Below are positions 15,862 through 20,489 of a stretch of DNA of 20,489 nucleotides, piece after piece. A model generated the notes under the pieces. That model was given only the letters and a program-made list of their open reading frames with translations, had not been told where the DNA came from and ran no database searches. Both the position numbers and the translations under genes were made by a program. How positions within the stretch are numbered: the stretch's first letter is position 1; every line of letters starts with the position of its first letter. Location: IMG/VR virus record IMGVR_UViG_3300030085_000749, positions 1 to 20,489 of that record; one strand, written 5' to 3'. The DNA is from a virus.

Positions 15862-16113
15862 TTACTCCGGTAGGGTGTGTGCCCCTGCAAATACATTTGG
15901 AGCTGTTACATGAACATCTCTTCTAATATCTGCCTCTGTTGTTTCTGTGTCAGGATTGTCAATATCTGCCTGACACTCCTCGTGTGAATTATACTCTTGA
16001 CCTGTTTTAGTATTGGTTATTGTAGTTTCAACTTTAGCACTATAAACAGGAACTTTTTCACCATCAATCTCGTCGTAACGTAAGATTTTAGGTTCATCTA
16101 CAATTTTCGCCAT
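15862..16113 (-). CDS. Small acidic unknown protein of the late operon
   Basis: 83 aa, acidic, not assigned. It begins MAKIVDEPKILRYDEIDGE, has a beta-like centre (VYSAKVETTITNTKTGQEY), a single Cys in SHEECQADIDNPDTET, and ends RRDVHVTAPNVFAGAH. No Shine-Dalgarno is seen before the ATG at 16113; the preceding 39-base gap is AT-rich. It lies between the oxygenase genes and the interior proteins. Similar short proteins occur in marine phages as far as I recall, with no known role. Confidence 0.65.
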   Translation of the reverse strand: MAKIVDEPKILRYDEIDGEKVPVYSAKVETTITNTKTGQEYNSHEECQADIDNPDTETTEADIRRDVHVTAPNVFAGAHTLPE

Positions 16114-16152
16114 ACTATAGTTTTATAGACGAAAACCTAATAAATCAACCGA
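16114..16152 (-). promoter_or_regulatory. AT-rich 39-base gap, possible internal promoter
   Basis: This is the longest non-coding gap in the late operon. On the - strand it reads TATAAAACTATAG just before the ATG and contains a 5-bp inverted repeat (CTATA/TATAG, 16115-16128). It could hold a promoter for the virion genes to its left; there is no matching -35 element I would trust. Confidence 0.25.
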
Positions 16153-16740
16153 TTATTGAAAGCCTATGTTTCCTGAGATTGATATTCTATCTTCATCAGA
16201 AGTGTAGAAGGGATAGACTTGATGATTTAGTTGAGCAGGGAATAAAGCCATTTTACCCTCCCATTCATTATCGGCAGGTACTGCGTGTGAGGTTATGTTT
16301 CCTAATTCATTTGTCATTATAAAAACAAAATGACCCGCTCTTATTTCACTTTCTTTCATATGTGGAAATCTAGCTTTTTCATCAGCCATTTTAAAAGGAA
16401 TTTTGTGCCAAATAACAAAACTAAATAAACCATCGTGTATGTGAATTGGATTAAATTCATGTTTCTTTTGATAGTTTACCCAAAGACTATGTAGTTCTAA
16501 CCTGAACTGATCTCCTTTATGCATACCACTTATTCTTGCAAAATAACCTGGATACTTGTCAAAATGTGCTTGTATACATTTATCAATCAGAGGCCAAACA
16601 ATAGGTTTGCCATCAGGTATTAAAAACTCACTTTGAATATTACCTGCTAAATCGTGATTAGCTTTTTCGGTATGTTTTTTGTTTATTACTTCGTCTAGTT
16701 TTTTTGTAATGTCTTCAGGGACATTTGTTATAAGATACAT
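16153..16740 (-). CDS. 2OG-Fe(II) oxygenase-like protein C (HxH type)
   Basis: 195 aa. The C-terminal half resembles the putative 2OG-Fe(II) oxygenase family (Pfam PF13759-like): NPIHIHDGLFSFVIW gives candidate metal ligands His100 and His102 (or Asp103), ALFPAQLNHQVYPF gives His173, and DEDRISISGNI supplies Arg185 for 2-oxoglutarate. The N-terminal 90 residues are helical and less conserved. Such enzymes usually hydroxylate a protein side chain or small molecule using oxygen and 2-oxoglutarate; the substrate here is unknown. ATG 16740 has a good AAAGGAG and follows the neighbouring oxygenase stop directly. A cupin-like non-enzymatic protein is the alternative. Confidence 0.7.
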   Translation of the reverse strand: MYLITNVPEDITKKLDEVINKKHTEKANHDLAGNIQSEFLIPDGKPIVWPLIDKCIQAHFDKYPGYFARISGMHKGDQFRLELHSLWVNYQKKHEFNPIHIHDGLFSFVIWHKIPFKMADEKARFPHMKESEIRAGHFVFIMTNELGNITSHAVPADNEWEGKMALFPAQLNHQVYPFYTSDEDRISISGNIGFQ

Positions 16741-17262
16741 TTATTGCTCCTTTGTAACTAATACTATTCTTAATAAAGAAGATAATCTGACAGGGGCTAA
16801 AGCTCTGTGAGGTAAAACTCCATTAAATAAAAAAGTTTTACCAAACTCAGGAGTTACTCCACCCACTACTACCCTACAATCTTTACTATAACATAGCACT
16901 TCTCCACCCCAACTCTTGTCCCAATCAATATTTAAAAAAGTTATTGTGGTTAGTTTGTAGTCTCCTTCTTCCTCTTCATAATCAGTATGAATAAGACCGT
17001 CATAGCCTGACGGATAAATCAGTATTTTTGAATCTTTCTTACACCACTTACGATTTCTTTCTTCATACATCTTCTTACAAGAATTTTCTAATTCTTCATA
17101 TCTATGAAAATATTTTTCTAATGTTTCAAACATATTCATAAAAGATTCAAACGAAGTAACTTCTTGAGTTCCAGAAGCATTTAAACCCCACGGAATACCA
17201 TTTGAAATACATTTTTCAAGACTTAGAAGTAAATCTCTAGAAAAAATTTCTCTTAATTCCAT
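16741..17262 (-). CDS. 2OG-Fe(II) oxygenase, prolyl-4-hydroxylase type (B)
   Basis: 173 aa. It has the full facial triad of a prolyl-4-hydroxylase-like fold: IHTDY (His92, Asp94), then WGGE, FLFNGVLPHRALAP (His152), and Arg165 in LLRIVLVT as the probable 2-oxoglutarate ligand. All are spaced as in the family (PF13640-type). The N-terminus is helical with a charged, Cys-containing stretch (SCKKMYEERNRKWCKK). It is expected to hydroxylate a side chain, often proline, in a protein. The ATG at 17262 lacks a clear Shine-Dalgarno, lying two bases after the stop of the 118-aa gene, so it is probably read by coupling. The substrate is unknown; neighbouring structural proteins are candidates. Confidence 0.85.
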   Translation of the reverse strand: MELREIFSRDLLLSLEKCISNGIPWGLNASGTQEVTSFESFMNMFETLEKYFHRYEELENSCKKMYEERNRKWCKKDSKILIYPSGYDGLIHTDYEEEEGDYKLTTITFLNIDWDKSWGGEVLCYSKDCRVVVGGVTPEFGKTFLFNGVLPHRALAPVRLSSLLRIVLVTKEQ

Positions 17263-17264
17263 TT

Positions 17265-17621
17265 CTATTGTTGTTGTTTTACCTCTAATACTGATACTTC
17301 AACCATTGCTCTTGATGATGCGTTAGCTTGTAGTTTCATAGCATCTCCTTCTTGATAAACCATAGAGGTTGAAATAGTATTTGTGTCTGACGCTGATACA
17401 TCTACTTGAAAAACTTGTAGATCATTACTTCCGTCATTGTGATCAATGTTAACTGTCACTGCGCTTGATCCATCATAATTGTGTGTATTTATAGTTTTTA
17501 CGATAAATGTCGACACTGGTGTAGGTGGAGTAGCTGCCACGTTTGCGGTAGGCACAGTAAAAATTGTGGTTAAATCAGTTGTAGTCAAATTAGCAACAAA
17601 TCTTCTAAATACGTCTGCCAT
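17265..17621 (-). CDS. Small beta-rich virion protein
   Basis: 118 aa, rich in Thr, Val, Ser and Asn with alternating hydrophobic residues (FIVKTINTHNYDGSSAVTVN), which suggests a beta-sandwich. It ends VEVSVLEVKQQQ. No catalytic motif. Its ATG overlaps the stop of the 55-aa gene (TAATG), and it sits between tail-nozzle and oxygenase genes, so a tail, neck or decoration component is likely. I recall comparable proteins next to nozzle genes in marine phages, but their function is not known to me. Confidence 0.65.
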   Translation of the reverse strand: MADVFRRFVANLTTTDLTTIFTVPTANVAATPPTPVSTFIVKTINTHNYDGSSAVTVNIDHNDGSNDLQVFQVDVSASDTNTISTSMVYQEGDAMKLQANASSRAMVEVSVLEVKQQQ

Positions 17622-17788
17622 TAATTAAAAAACCACGCTCTTCTCGTGGACTCCTCCTGTGTGTCTTGTGTGTATTGAGTATTTAATTGCTGTATCATTT
17701 CTTCTAGTTGTCTAATTAATTCAGCAGACTGTTGGGCATCATACTCAGGTCGTGGATCAGGAAATCTCTGTAAGATTAATTTTGCCAT
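17621..17788 (-). CDS. Small helical protein between two tail genes
   Basis: 55 aa: MAKLILQRFPDPRPEYDAQQ, then a helix rich in Gln and Glu (SAELIRQLEEMIQQLNTQYTQ) and a basic/aromatic end RRAWFFN. It overlaps both neighbours by one or a few bases (TAATG at each end), leaving no unexplained gap, which strongly supports it as a gene. The helix has a heptad-like pattern and could form a short coiled coil. Probably a minor virion component or assembly factor; no family is recognised. Confidence 0.75.
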   Translation of the reverse strand: MAKLILQRFPDPRPEYDAQQSAELIRQLEEMIQQLNTQYTQDTQEESTRRAWFFN

Positions 17789-19614
17789 TATCTTCTTCCA
17801 TCAGGTTGAATATCAAATCTTTGTGTTCCAAGTCTCCAAGCAGTGCCTGTAGTATTTGAAACGACATTAACAGTAAACTCTCTTCCTCTTCCACGTAAGC
17901 TTACAAATTCTGTAGCATCAGTGAAGGTGGCTGTTTTTGTGGTGCTAGTGCTATTGTTTGGATAATACTTAAATTCTAATTTCATATTTAATGTTCCTGA
18001 TTGATTTTGAATATCAGGAATCAATTTTTGTACAAAAAGAATATCGTTTCCTTCTCCTATTTCAACAGATCCAGATTTAACAAATGCAGTCATTGCTTCT
18101 CCATCAGCATCATTACCTGTCTCATGTAAAAACATTTGTGTAGCACCATCAGTTAAACCAGAAATAGTTTCATTATTAGCCGTGGTTGTTGGCAAATAAT
18201 CCGATGCTACAGGATTGTCGTACACTTCTCGATCAATCCAAGTTGTTCTGTCCAAAGTTCCTGTCCACCAAGTTTGTTCTAAGTAATTATAGGCAACAAC
18301 AGCATTGATTGTGTCCGATCCTGTTCTAGGATAAAACCACATTATTTCATTAAACTCACCATTGTGTCCTGCAAAAGCGTTTTCAGATCCTGTAATATTT
18401 ATATTGTCAAAAACAAATTGTTCCACGGTGCATGGTAGTTTTTTAACCGTACCATCAAATAAATAAAAAGAATCTTGAGACATCCAATATGCAACACCAT
18501 TTAAATCAAGCCCTGCGTGTATGCCTATAATACCACAATTTTGACCTAGCTGTCTTAAACCAAAAGTAAAAGGAGGACCAATAAACTGCATTGAGTGTAG
18601 TGAAGAATCTGTCCATACTAATATTTGACCTCTCGATCTTTCAGCCGCCACGATTCGTGATCCGTCGGCAATACGTAATGAACCCGCAGTATTTTCTGCG
18701 GTGGGTTGATACGTGGTAATATCTTCTTGATCTGAAAATCTAATTAGTAAATCATCTTGAGAGCTTGTTGTTCCAATAGTATTTTCTGTTCCCATAAAAA
18801 CTAAATGTCTATCAGGTGTTGATACTAAACTTATTCTTGACGCTGTTGGTGCTCCTGATATTGCTGCAGCTCTTGTAGACACACCAGTTGATGTATCCCA
18901 TTTAAAAGCTCCACCGTTTAAAACTGTTGCGATTAAATCTTCACCAAAATTATCAAGTGACCATTGTCTTGCTTCCAAAGTTACATTTGAGACTGTTGAA
19001 GGAGTGCCCCATGTGCCCGAACCCCAACTGTCTGTGCCCCAACCAAAAGCAGAAGTAGATATCTCAGGACCTATTGATATTTGATATTTTGCATTACCTG
19101 AACCGCCACCACCAGATGTAGATCCAGAGGCTGCAGCCGTTGTCGTTACTACATAAGCATCACTGTTTGCTATAGATGTAATTTCAAACTCTTTATTCAT
19201 ATCTAAACCATCTATTGCAGAAAAAGAATCAAATGTCACAAAGTCTCCCGCTTGAGCACCATGAGAAGTATCTGTGACAACTACGGATGTTGTTGCATTT
19301 GTAGTAAATGGATTAGTTAAAGCTTGTGTTTCTCTTATAGGAGTAATGTCGTAAGCTAAACCCTCCTCTATCACATAGAGCTTTCTATCCGTGCCTACAG
19401 CATTATATCTTGTGCCGTCTAAAGCTACCCATGCGTGCATATCACGAGCCACCCCTACCAAAGTGGTGGTGATAAACTTCTCCCATCCTTTGATCTTTTG
19501 TGGCAATCCTTGAAAAAAGCGTACGTTATCGCCGTCTGTCCACTTGCCTTCGCCTGTGTAGTCGGTTACTTCTTTATTGATACCTGGTGCTGGTCTAAAA
19601 TTAACTAAGGGCAT
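17788..19614 (-). CDS. Tail nozzle / DNA-stabilisation protein of a short-tailed phage
   Basis: 608 aa, predicted to close the head and form the lower tail tube. It begins MPLVNFRPAPGINKEVTDYT and has RFFQGLPQKIKGW near residue 35, a segment typical of P22 gp10-like or tail-tubular-B-like proteins in marine phages. The body is beta-rich with repeated strand motifs consistent with a beta-propeller. Near residues 160-205 a Ser/Gly-rich linker (SGSTSGGGGSGN) is followed by GWGTDSWGSGTWG, another mark of this group. The C-terminus ends LGTQRFDIQPDGRR, as in stabilisation proteins. It is in the late operon, 12 bases after an oxygenase gene. Assignment to tail is firm; the exact equivalence to gp10 or T7 gp12 is uncertain. 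Confidence 0.8.
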   Translation of the reverse strand: MPLVNFRPAPGINKEVTDYTGEGKWTDGDNVRFFQGLPQKIKGWEKFITTTLVGVARDMHAWVALDGTRYNAVGTDRKLYVIEEGLAYDITPIRETQALTNPFTTNATTSVVVTDTSHGAQAGDFVTFDSFSAIDGLDMNKEFEITSIANSDAYVVTTTAAASGSTSGGGGSGNAKYQISIGPEISTSAFGWGTDSWGSGTWGTPSTVSNVTLEARQWSLDNFGEDLIATVLNGGAFKWDTSTGVSTRAAAISGAPTASRISLVSTPDRHLVFMGTENTIGTTSSQDDLLIRFSDQEDITTYQPTAENTAGSLRIADGSRIVAAERSRGQILVWTDSSLHSMQFIGPPFTFGLRQLGQNCGIIGIHAGLDLNGVAYWMSQDSFYLFDGTVKKLPCTVEQFVFDNINITGSENAFAGHNGEFNEIMWFYPRTGSDTINAVVAYNYLEQTWWTGTLDRTTWIDREVYDNPVASDYLPTTTANNETISGLTDGATQMFLHETGNDADGEAMTAFVKSGSVEIGEGNDILFVQKLIPDIQNQSGTLNMKLEFKYYPNNSTSTTKTATFTDATEFVSLRGRGREFTVNVVSNTTGTAWRLGTQRFDIQPDGRR

Positions 19615-19626
19615 TGTGCCAATATA

Positions 19627-20133
19627 CTATATTTTTCTAAAATTAAAAGCGAGTGTAATCCGTTCATGATTTTCACCACCACAGGAGGACACAGAATGTG
19701 GTATATTTGCTTTGAAAAAAACCATCATTTTTTCTTTTGGATGTAAAAGGTACTGTTCTGAAATTATTGTTGGAACCAAACTATGAAAATTAAGCGTTGC
19801 TTTTTCACAGCATACTTTATGATAGTACACTACTGACCATGCTTCTTCAGTTGCATGAATATGTGGAAGATTAAAAGAATTGCCATCATTAATATTCAAC
19901 CAAAAATTAGATAATTGACAATTAAAATCAATTGAGGCTAAGCTCTCAATAGCAAAATTGATAATATCATCAAAACCAAAAGTAATATTATTGCTTTGAT
20001 AACCTCCTCGATTACTGACAACTCTACCTTTATCAAAGGTTAAAATGTGATCTATGTGTTTCTGTATGATATCAGTATCACCAGTATAATCATTTAAATA
20101 TATTGATTCTTTACGAATTACTTTCTCAATCAT
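19627..20133 (-). CDS. 2OG-Fe(II) oxygenase-like protein A (HxH type)
   Basis: 168 aa. The second half matches the putative 2OG-Fe(II) oxygenase pattern: FNLPHIHATEEAWSVVYY (His91 and His93), then MVFFKANIPHSVSS (His146) and NHERITLAFNF (Arg158). As in protein C, the Asp of the usual HxD is replaced in an HxH arrangement that I believe is normal for this subfamily. The start overlaps the glycosyltransferase-like stop as ATGA, so the two are probably coupled. Proteins A and C share the general pattern but little sequence, so they do not look like a recent duplication. The substrate is unknown. Confidence 0.7.
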   Translation of the reverse strand: MIEKVIRKESIYLNDYTGDTDIIQKHIDHILTFDKGRVVSNRGGYQSNNITFGFDDIINFAIESLASIDFNCQLSNFWLNINDGNSFNLPHIHATEEAWSVVYYHKVCCEKATLNFHSLVPTIISEQYLLHPKEKMMVFFKANIPHSVSSCGGENHERITLAFNFRKI

Positions 20134-20489
20134 TTTTTTTGTGCAACCAAAGACCCAACGTGTCCCTTATATGTCCTGTTGCCAAAATGTGTTAAAGGCA
20201 TTGCTAAATCTGCCCATATCTTACCACCGCACTCTTGCCATAGTCTTGAAAAATAATAATCCTCTGACAGATATCTAACTTGTGGTTTACCATCTCTGGG
20301 CGTATTGTACGGGCCCACTGCAAACAAATCATAACAGTTATCTGACTTATAGTACAAACCATTTACTATTTGATCAGACTCATATTTTCTTTCAGGGAAC
20401 TTTTTAAACATGGTTCTAAACACTTCTCGTTTTACAAGCATCATTCCTGTTGCAGCTTCGTTAACCGGGAAAAAACCATCGTGCCCTGT
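20130..20489 (-). CDS. Glycosyltransferase-like protein, C-terminal part (partial)
   Basis: The frame is open from the right edge for 119 residues and stops at TGA 20130-20132, so the start is outside the window. The visible part has GFFPVNEAATGMMLVKREVF, later YLSEDYYFSRLW, then GGKIWADLAMPLTHFG and YKGHVGSL. The A-A-T-G-x-M-L-V-K-R segment, the LSEDY-x-F acidic motif, and the GG-x-I-W-A-D and H-x-G end are typical of GT-A fold glycosyltransferases in marine phages and bacteria. The nucleotide-sugar binding DxD would lie upstream and cannot be checked. It overlaps the oxygenase A gene by 4 bases. A role in decorating virion proteins, DNA or host surface is possible. Confidence 0.65.
   Translation of the reverse strand, partial: TGHDGFFPVNEAATGMMLVKREVFRTMFKKFPERKYESDQIVNGLYYKSDNCYDLFAVGPYNTPRDGKPQVRYLSEDYYFSRLWQECGGKIWADLAMPLTHFGNRTYKGHVGSLVAQKK

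Follow-up and report, generated by a model that had tools for sequence, protein, structure and literature searches.

Genes for Fe(II)/2-oxoglutarate (2OG) oxygenases are common in marine viruses, where they are usually filed as metabolic genes. Two described gene sets are close to the one considered here. HTVC023P-type pelagiphages hold eight non-orthologous 2OG-Fe(II) genes near one another, adjoining ferrochelatase-like genes, together with three glycosyltransferases (Wittmers et al. 2022, PMC9599517). Cyanomyoviruses carry genes for 2OG oxygenases, tryptophan halogenase, carbamoyltransferase and ferrochelatase-domain proteins, with one to five 2OG genes each in 14 of 16 genomes (Sullivan et al. 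2010, PMC3037559). Here we analyse the virus record IMGVR_UViG_3300030085_000749 of IMG/VR over 20,489 bases (the window), in which three predicted 2OG oxygenase genes and a glycosyltransferase-like gene (GT) are interleaved with a nozzle gene and several small genes. Multiple 2OG genes in this lineage are already known (PMC9599517). Comparison of the window with its relatives shows that the oxygenase genes are interchangeable cargo, which occupies fixed junctions of a conserved tail gene scaffold and is replaced faster than that scaffold diverges.

The right part of the window consists entirely of minus-strand genes that abut or overlap. Its features, with protein lengths in amino acids (aa), are as follows.

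20130 to 20489, minus strand: C-terminal 119 aa of the GT, a scaffold gene cut by the contig end.
19627 to 20133, minus strand: predicted 168-aa 2OG-Fe(II) oxygenase (PF13759, HxH...H iron site), cargo of slot B between GT and nozzle.
17788 to 19614, minus strand: nozzle or P22 gp10-like stabilization protein, 608 aa, scaffold gene (phrog_3287).
17786 to 17790, minus strand: slot C, the junction of the nozzle and 55-aa genes, empty in the window and holding 0-5 cargo genes in relatives.
17621 to 17788, minus strand: 55-aa scaffold gene (phrog_32936, E 7.8e-13), in 72 of 80 loci.
17265 to 17621, minus strand: scaffold gene for a small 118-aa protein, a possible substrate, in 69 of 80 loci.
16741 to 17262, minus strand: predicted 173-aa 2OG oxygenase of the prolyl-hydroxylase type (PF13640), first cargo gene of slot D.
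16153 to 16740, minus strand: predicted 195-aa 2OG oxygenase (PF13759, HxH...H...R), second cargo gene of slot D.
16114 to 16150, minus strand: promoter-like element TTGATTT...CTATAAAACTATAGT (also TTGATTT...CTATAAAACTATA) just upstream of the 83-aa gene, its consensus kept in 50 loci.
15862 to 16113, minus strand: 83-aa scaffold gene that closes slot D, in 58 of 80 loci.

The comparison set comprised 80 contigs related by their nozzle proteins (84-100% aa identity), of which 55 contain the complete region and were used for counts of arrangement and co-occurrence. Gene order is fixed across the contigs as GT, nozzle, 55-aa, 118-aa and 83-aa gene, and insertions fall into four slots: A upstream of the GT, B between GT and nozzle, C between the nozzle and 55-aa genes, and D between the 118-aa and 83-aa genes. 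No insertion between the 55-aa and 118-aa genes was seen in the gene maps of the 80 contigs. The complete regions display 43 different arrangements with 0-11 cargo genes (mean 3.8) and lengths of 3.2-11.0 kb; in four of the 55 all inner slots (B-D) are empty, with the scaffold joined cleanly at the empty junctions, and those empty-slot genomes for which upstream sequence is available still have 2OG genes upstream of the GT. We regard this slot architecture, taken by itself, as practically certain. Junction sequences show that the promoter-like TTGATTT element stays with the 83-aa gene both in regions with an occupied slot D and in those where it is empty. The nozzle gene likewise has a conserved TATATT element ahead of it.

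The inner slots of the relatives hold 270 cargo genes, 81% of which encode 2OG or cupin/JmjC oxygenases: 170 belong to Pfam-supported 2OG clusters (assigned via representatives or window members), 26 to clusters placed in the 2OG class by motif (PHROG matches back most of these), and 22 are of the cupin/JmjC type. Other inner-slot cargo includes tryptophan halogenase (E 3e-102), carbamoyltransferase (6e-51), sulfotransferase (1e-12), methyltransferases and DUF6065 proteins. The expression Hx[DEH]...H...R/K, a loose pattern without a chance control, matches 378 of 395 2OG-class cargo proteins. The 28 loci for which upstream sequence exceeds 5 kb contain 3-11 2OG-class genes per region (mean 5.7). 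The gene set given in the preliminary description is real, and its three oxygenases exceed Pfam cut-offs, but its size was undercounted: in this region a sister contig (L001), whose nozzle gene is 99.7% identical at the DNA level, has seven 2OG-class genes, accompanied by one gene each for a carbamoyltransferase and a DUF6065 protein. Homing endonucleases or other selfish genes were considered as cargo and rejected, the cluster representatives having no HNH or GIY-YIG match in Pfam.

DUF6065 proteins (phrog_7084; L062:10323-11036, L001:4729-5451) accompany oxygenase cargo in 29 loci. Tryptophan halogenase genes lie amid the tail genes of pelagiphage-like contigs (L080:12615-14105, L111, L131), adjoining cupin/JmjC and 2OG genes. 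Upstream of the cargo, glycine-rich adhesin-like proteins with 27-34% Gly (L037:769-1788, with PF21722 in L037; L051:1327-2244; others) alternate with S74-chaperone fibres.

Cargo differs even between close relatives. Among 33 pairs of contigs with 90-95% nozzle DNA identity, 97% have no common cargo at ≥70% aa identity (empty-slot pairs counted), and sister contig L001 shares no cargo with L002 (nozzle 93.7%). The family that includes the 168-aa oxygenase requires at least 22 slot changes on its tree, fewer than the 41 under random labelling, so that movement from slot to slot takes place, but under some constraint. Most members of the 195-aa family are found in slot D, and among the cargo families this one is the most persistent. 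Ratios of nonsynonymous to synonymous substitution (dN/dS), computed on pairs at least 75% identical, are about 0.1 for close cargo pairs and about 0.08 for the 195-aa family, as expected of working genes; the prolyl-hydroxylase-type (P4H) cluster gave 0.5 from three pairs only. Divergent cluster pairs gave values near 1 because of saturation.

All three window proteins are predicted members of the Fe(II)/2OG oxygenase superfamily by Pfam cut-offs (27 bits in each case): PF13759 (2OG-FeII_Oxy_5) for the 195-aa protein (E 2.6e-9, 37.8 bits) and the 168-aa protein (E 6.5e-7, 30.1 bits), and the prolyl-hydroxylase-type PF13640 for the 173-aa protein (E 2.1e-8, 35.4 bits), with PHROG matches consistent for all three. 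The predicted iron site of the 195-aa family reads HxH...H...R, with H100, H102, H173 and R185 invariant across the aligned relatives; that of the 168-aa family reads HxH...H, with H91, H93 and H146 invariant in 30 sequences that average 30% identity; and HxD...H...R is invariant among relatives of the 173-aa protein. The earlier division into one P4H-type and two HxH-type enzymes therefore proved exact. Given the Pfam scores, conservation and purifying selection, chance can be excluded as an explanation for these oxygenase genes. The profile of the 168-aa family matches the PDB structures 3bvc (E 4e-14) and 2rg4 (E 9e-14), both PF13759 proteins that also carry HxH...H rather than the canonical HxD/E...H, so that HxH...H is this family's own variant. 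A model of the 195-aa protein (predicted local distance difference test, pLDDT, 92.9) has the double-stranded beta-helix 2OG oxygenase fold at high confidence, and ranks 3bvc (Z 15.1) and 2rg4 nearest, followed by protein prolyl hydroxylases (Z 13-14; bacterial P4H 13.8). The 173-aa protein, which also matches human PHD2/EGLN1 weakly in the PDB (E about 0.1), is predicted to be of the prolyl-hydroxylase type by its PF13640 domain, its HxD...H...R site and its similarity to P4H and PHD enzymes.

The PHROG family phrog_274 is labelled "DNA endonuclease V" yet matches 2OG oxygenases; the gene at 16741-17262 matches both phrog_274 and PF13640, and the label spreads, for example to URG13117.1 in phage 023Pt_psg01. 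The "minor coat protein" label of phrog_1644 may be a similar error.

The fourth gene of the earlier set, described as glycosyltransferase-like, does resemble GT-A proteins, but only its C-terminal end lies inside the window, which stops at position 20489; the full-length protein of 275 aa is found in the sister contig (L001, 6658-7485). It has no Pfam match, and matches phrog_1574 (unknown function) and, weakly, the glycosyltransferase family phrog_34859 (E 9e-4). A PDB profile search with the GT alignment returned a single spurious match and nothing else. A DxD motif (D89-A-D91) is invariant in 38 sequences, and the structural model aligns with Z up to 11.5 to LH3 (residues 279-521), mimivirus R699, Mnn9, COLGALT1 and GalNAc-Ts; its closest neighbours are protein glycosyltransferases, including those acting on collagen hydroxylysine. 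We take the fold to be GT-A and consider glycosyltransferase activity probable. The gene is conserved (77 of 80 relatives, 55 of 55 complete regions) and its dN/dS is 0.09. GT relatives also lie between primase and helicase in HTVC027P (L168:3493-4200, gp05), and tandem pairs of them follow the 83-aa gene in some contigs (L093, L094).

It had been proposed that the four genes form one pathway of hydroxylation followed by glycosylation. This did not survive the co-occurrence analysis of the four genes that had been suggested along with it. Among the complete regions the GT occurs in 55, the 195-aa family in 31, the 168-aa family (≥40% identity) in nine and the P4H family in five (across all 80 loci, 38 for the 195-aa family at ≥40% identity and six for the P4H family). 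No two oxygenase families are more than weakly associated (Fisher p 0.06, 0.64 and 1.0, none significant), and among the relatives all three families occur together only in L001. The GT is thus a constant backbone gene, whereas the oxygenase families come and go independently of one another, and a fixed four-gene pathway is ruled out. The failure of the pathway does not refute a class of target common to the enzymes, and modification of virion proteins is plausible.

The position of the cargo within genomes bears on what that target may be. In seven contigs of 38-57 kb, every match to PF13640 or to the A3 profile lies no more than about 6 kb from the nozzle gene. In HTVC023P and HTVC027P, profiles of the cargo clusters find 2OG genes at one place only, just upstream of the nozzle, with none detected by this search in the other 42 kb and 37.8 kb of these genomes, respectively. 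Across another 80 HTVC023P-like contigs the commonest position of a 2OG gene is directly upstream of the nozzle, and tryptophan halogenase recurs twice. Such cargo was not found in the stretch examined of the more distant DSL-LC04 and CRP-902. In HTVC027P three 2OG genes (gp72-74, L083:4283-5944) lie close upstream of the nozzle gene in inverted orientation, on the other strand. The 608-aa window protein itself matches the virion structural family phrog_3287 (E 1.3e-88) and phage genes annotated "stabilization protein", and is 43-48% identical to its counterparts in phages HTVC023P (43%) and DSL-LC04; the 55-aa, 118-aa and 83-aa genes and the GT were recovered in HTVC023P by profile. A nucleotide search of the window against a phage collection gave no match. 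Judged by its homologous nozzle and neighbouring scaffold genes, the window belongs to an HTVC023P-related marine podovirus, whose host is most likely a SAR11 bacterium.

The cargo also covaries with neighbouring structural genes. The partial Mantel statistic is 0.35 (p about 0.003) between inner-slot cargo and the 118-aa gene and 0.33 (p about 0.003) between cargo upstream of the GT and the fibre genes; no such covariation was seen between inner-slot cargo and the fibres or a 268-aa gene. Two types of allele exist for the 118-aa gene (identity about 53% as against 83-97%) while the genes around it hardly differ, and the 195-aa oxygenase has a weak link to allele type (28/43 versus 4/15, Fisher p 0.015, kinship uncorrected). 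A collagen-like substrate was considered and rejected, as the only (G-x-y)8+ repeats near the enzymes are a short stretch within the fibre at two loci.

Confinement near the nozzle, the protein hydroxylases and protein glycosyltransferases among the structural neighbours, and the covariation of cargo all point to tail proteins as substrate. Small one-domain tailoring enzymes, mostly predicted Fe(II)/2OG hydroxylases, enter and leave set gene junctions as single open reading frame cassettes. We propose that they are made along with the tail proteins late in infection. They would oxidise side chains on exposed tail proteins, presumably fibres, nozzle and the 118-aa protein, after which the constant GT may add further groups, as may carbamoyl-, sulfo-, methyl- or halogen-transferring enzymes in relatives. 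A new enzyme set would give the receptor-facing surface a new chemistry with its fold unchanged, and for this reason sets might be swapped under pressure from host receptors or defences. That tail proteins are tailored by interchangeable enzymes, the GT being their constant partner, is in our judgement an evenly balanced proposition when the mechanism is taken as a whole. More tentatively, this abundant marine phage lineage might practise combinatorial protein tailoring, in which hydroxylase, halogenase, sulfotransferase, carbamoyltransferase and methyltransferase cassettes held in fixed slots diversify tail proteins and alter receptor recognition without a change of fold, the constant GT acting on the groups installed.

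Several observations weigh against tail-protein tailoring. Empty inner slots exist, so no single set of inner cargo is essential, and linkage alone could yield covariation between cargo and its neighbours. AlkB-type DNA repair enzymes align to the 195-aa model with Z 12.8, nearly equal to the prolyl hydroxylases, and the closest homologues of this protein from isolates, which are those of cyanomyoviruses, are encoded within the DNA-replication cluster. The quality of the GT model is modest (pLDDT 61), and its resemblance to collagen enzymes is only suggestive because GT-A folds are widespread and the matching LH3 segment, residues 279-521, is one we take to be an accessory domain rather than the active glycosyltransferase domain.

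The dispensability of inner-slot cargo would suit enzymes that act on the host, whether on its translation factors and ribosomal proteins or on its surface proteins and glycans, and that late in infection change host physiology or receptors (superinfection exclusion is one example), with the tail region a tolerated site for late-expressed insertions. A bacterial P4H with a solved EF-Tu complex (4iw3) is among the best structural matches, and surface glycans are conceivable substrates of the sulfo-, carbamoyl- and methyltransferases. However, the cargo is confined beside adhesin and nozzle genes rather than spread anywhere in the late region, and it tracks the 118-aa gene in the inner slots and the fibre genes upstream; we consider this explanation unlikely. 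A region that serves chiefly as a hot spot for the insertion of auxiliary metabolic genes, whose 2OG enzymes tune the 2-oxoglutarate, succinate or iron status of the host and whose diversity reflects gene flow without a common target, would agree with the very fast turnover of cargo, with the 2OG modulation proposed for cyanophages (PMC3037559) and with the ferrochelatase-like neighbours of 2OG genes in HTVC023P-type phages (PMC9599517). It is nevertheless improbable, as turning over 2OG in bulk would not call for 3-11 divergent enzymes in each genome under purifying selection, and halogenases and sulfotransferases occupy the same slots. Similarly improbable is a role as AlkB/TET-like enzymes that repair or hypermodify the nucleic acids (DNA or RNA) of the phage, in which case the GT and the carbamoyltransferase would finish the hypermodified bases: besides the AlkB fold match it can call on the position of the 195-aa homologues between regA and gp43 and of another 2OG gene next to uvsX, both in cyanophage Syn33, and on DNA repair as proposed for cyanophage 2OG proteins (cited in PMC3037559), but the families are PF13640 and PF13759 rather than TET/JBP or AlkB, halogenases, sulfotransferases and many parallel hydroxylases ill suit one base pathway, the cargo has no association with replication genes in these genomes, and the lineage's known hypermodification genes lie near the DNA polymerase and not here (PMC9599517).

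In the open-access literature searched we found no direct precedent for hydroxylation of phage virions, nor any description of the slot architecture or of the turnover, breadth and tail confinement of the cargo. The tail-gene slots, swapping that is faster than scaffold divergence, and the sharing of slots with halogenases, sulfotransferases and carbamoyltransferases point to tail proteins as a common and directly testable target, so that mass spectrometry of existing isolates could address the old question of the role of phage 2OG oxygenases.

By nozzle homology the window falls in the same broad lineage as the HTVC023P-type phages and their 2OG auxiliary metabolic genes. The consulted sections of the report on those phages (PMC9599517) make no mention of slots, empty sites, turnover, halogenase, carbamoyltransferase or sulfotransferase cargo, confinement to the nozzle or a role in tail modification. 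The GT is constant and precedes the nozzle here, whereas in HTVC023P a GT relative follows the 83-aa homologue. The cyanomyovirus set comprises largely the same kinds of enzyme, with homologues of the 195-aa protein at 40% identity, but the homologue examined there lies in the replication cluster and not among tail genes, and slots were not tested in that study (PMC3037559). The best structural matches, 3bvc and 2rg4, share the fold and HxH...H site of the PF13759 proteins of the window and are themselves uncharacterized cellular proteins of marine Rhodobacterales. The GT model resembles the collagen-modifying enzymes LH3, COLGALT1 and mimivirus R699 (Z 9-11.5); in those systems a hydroxylase and a glycosyltransferase cooperate on one protein, whereas in these phages the enzymes are encoded by separate genes.

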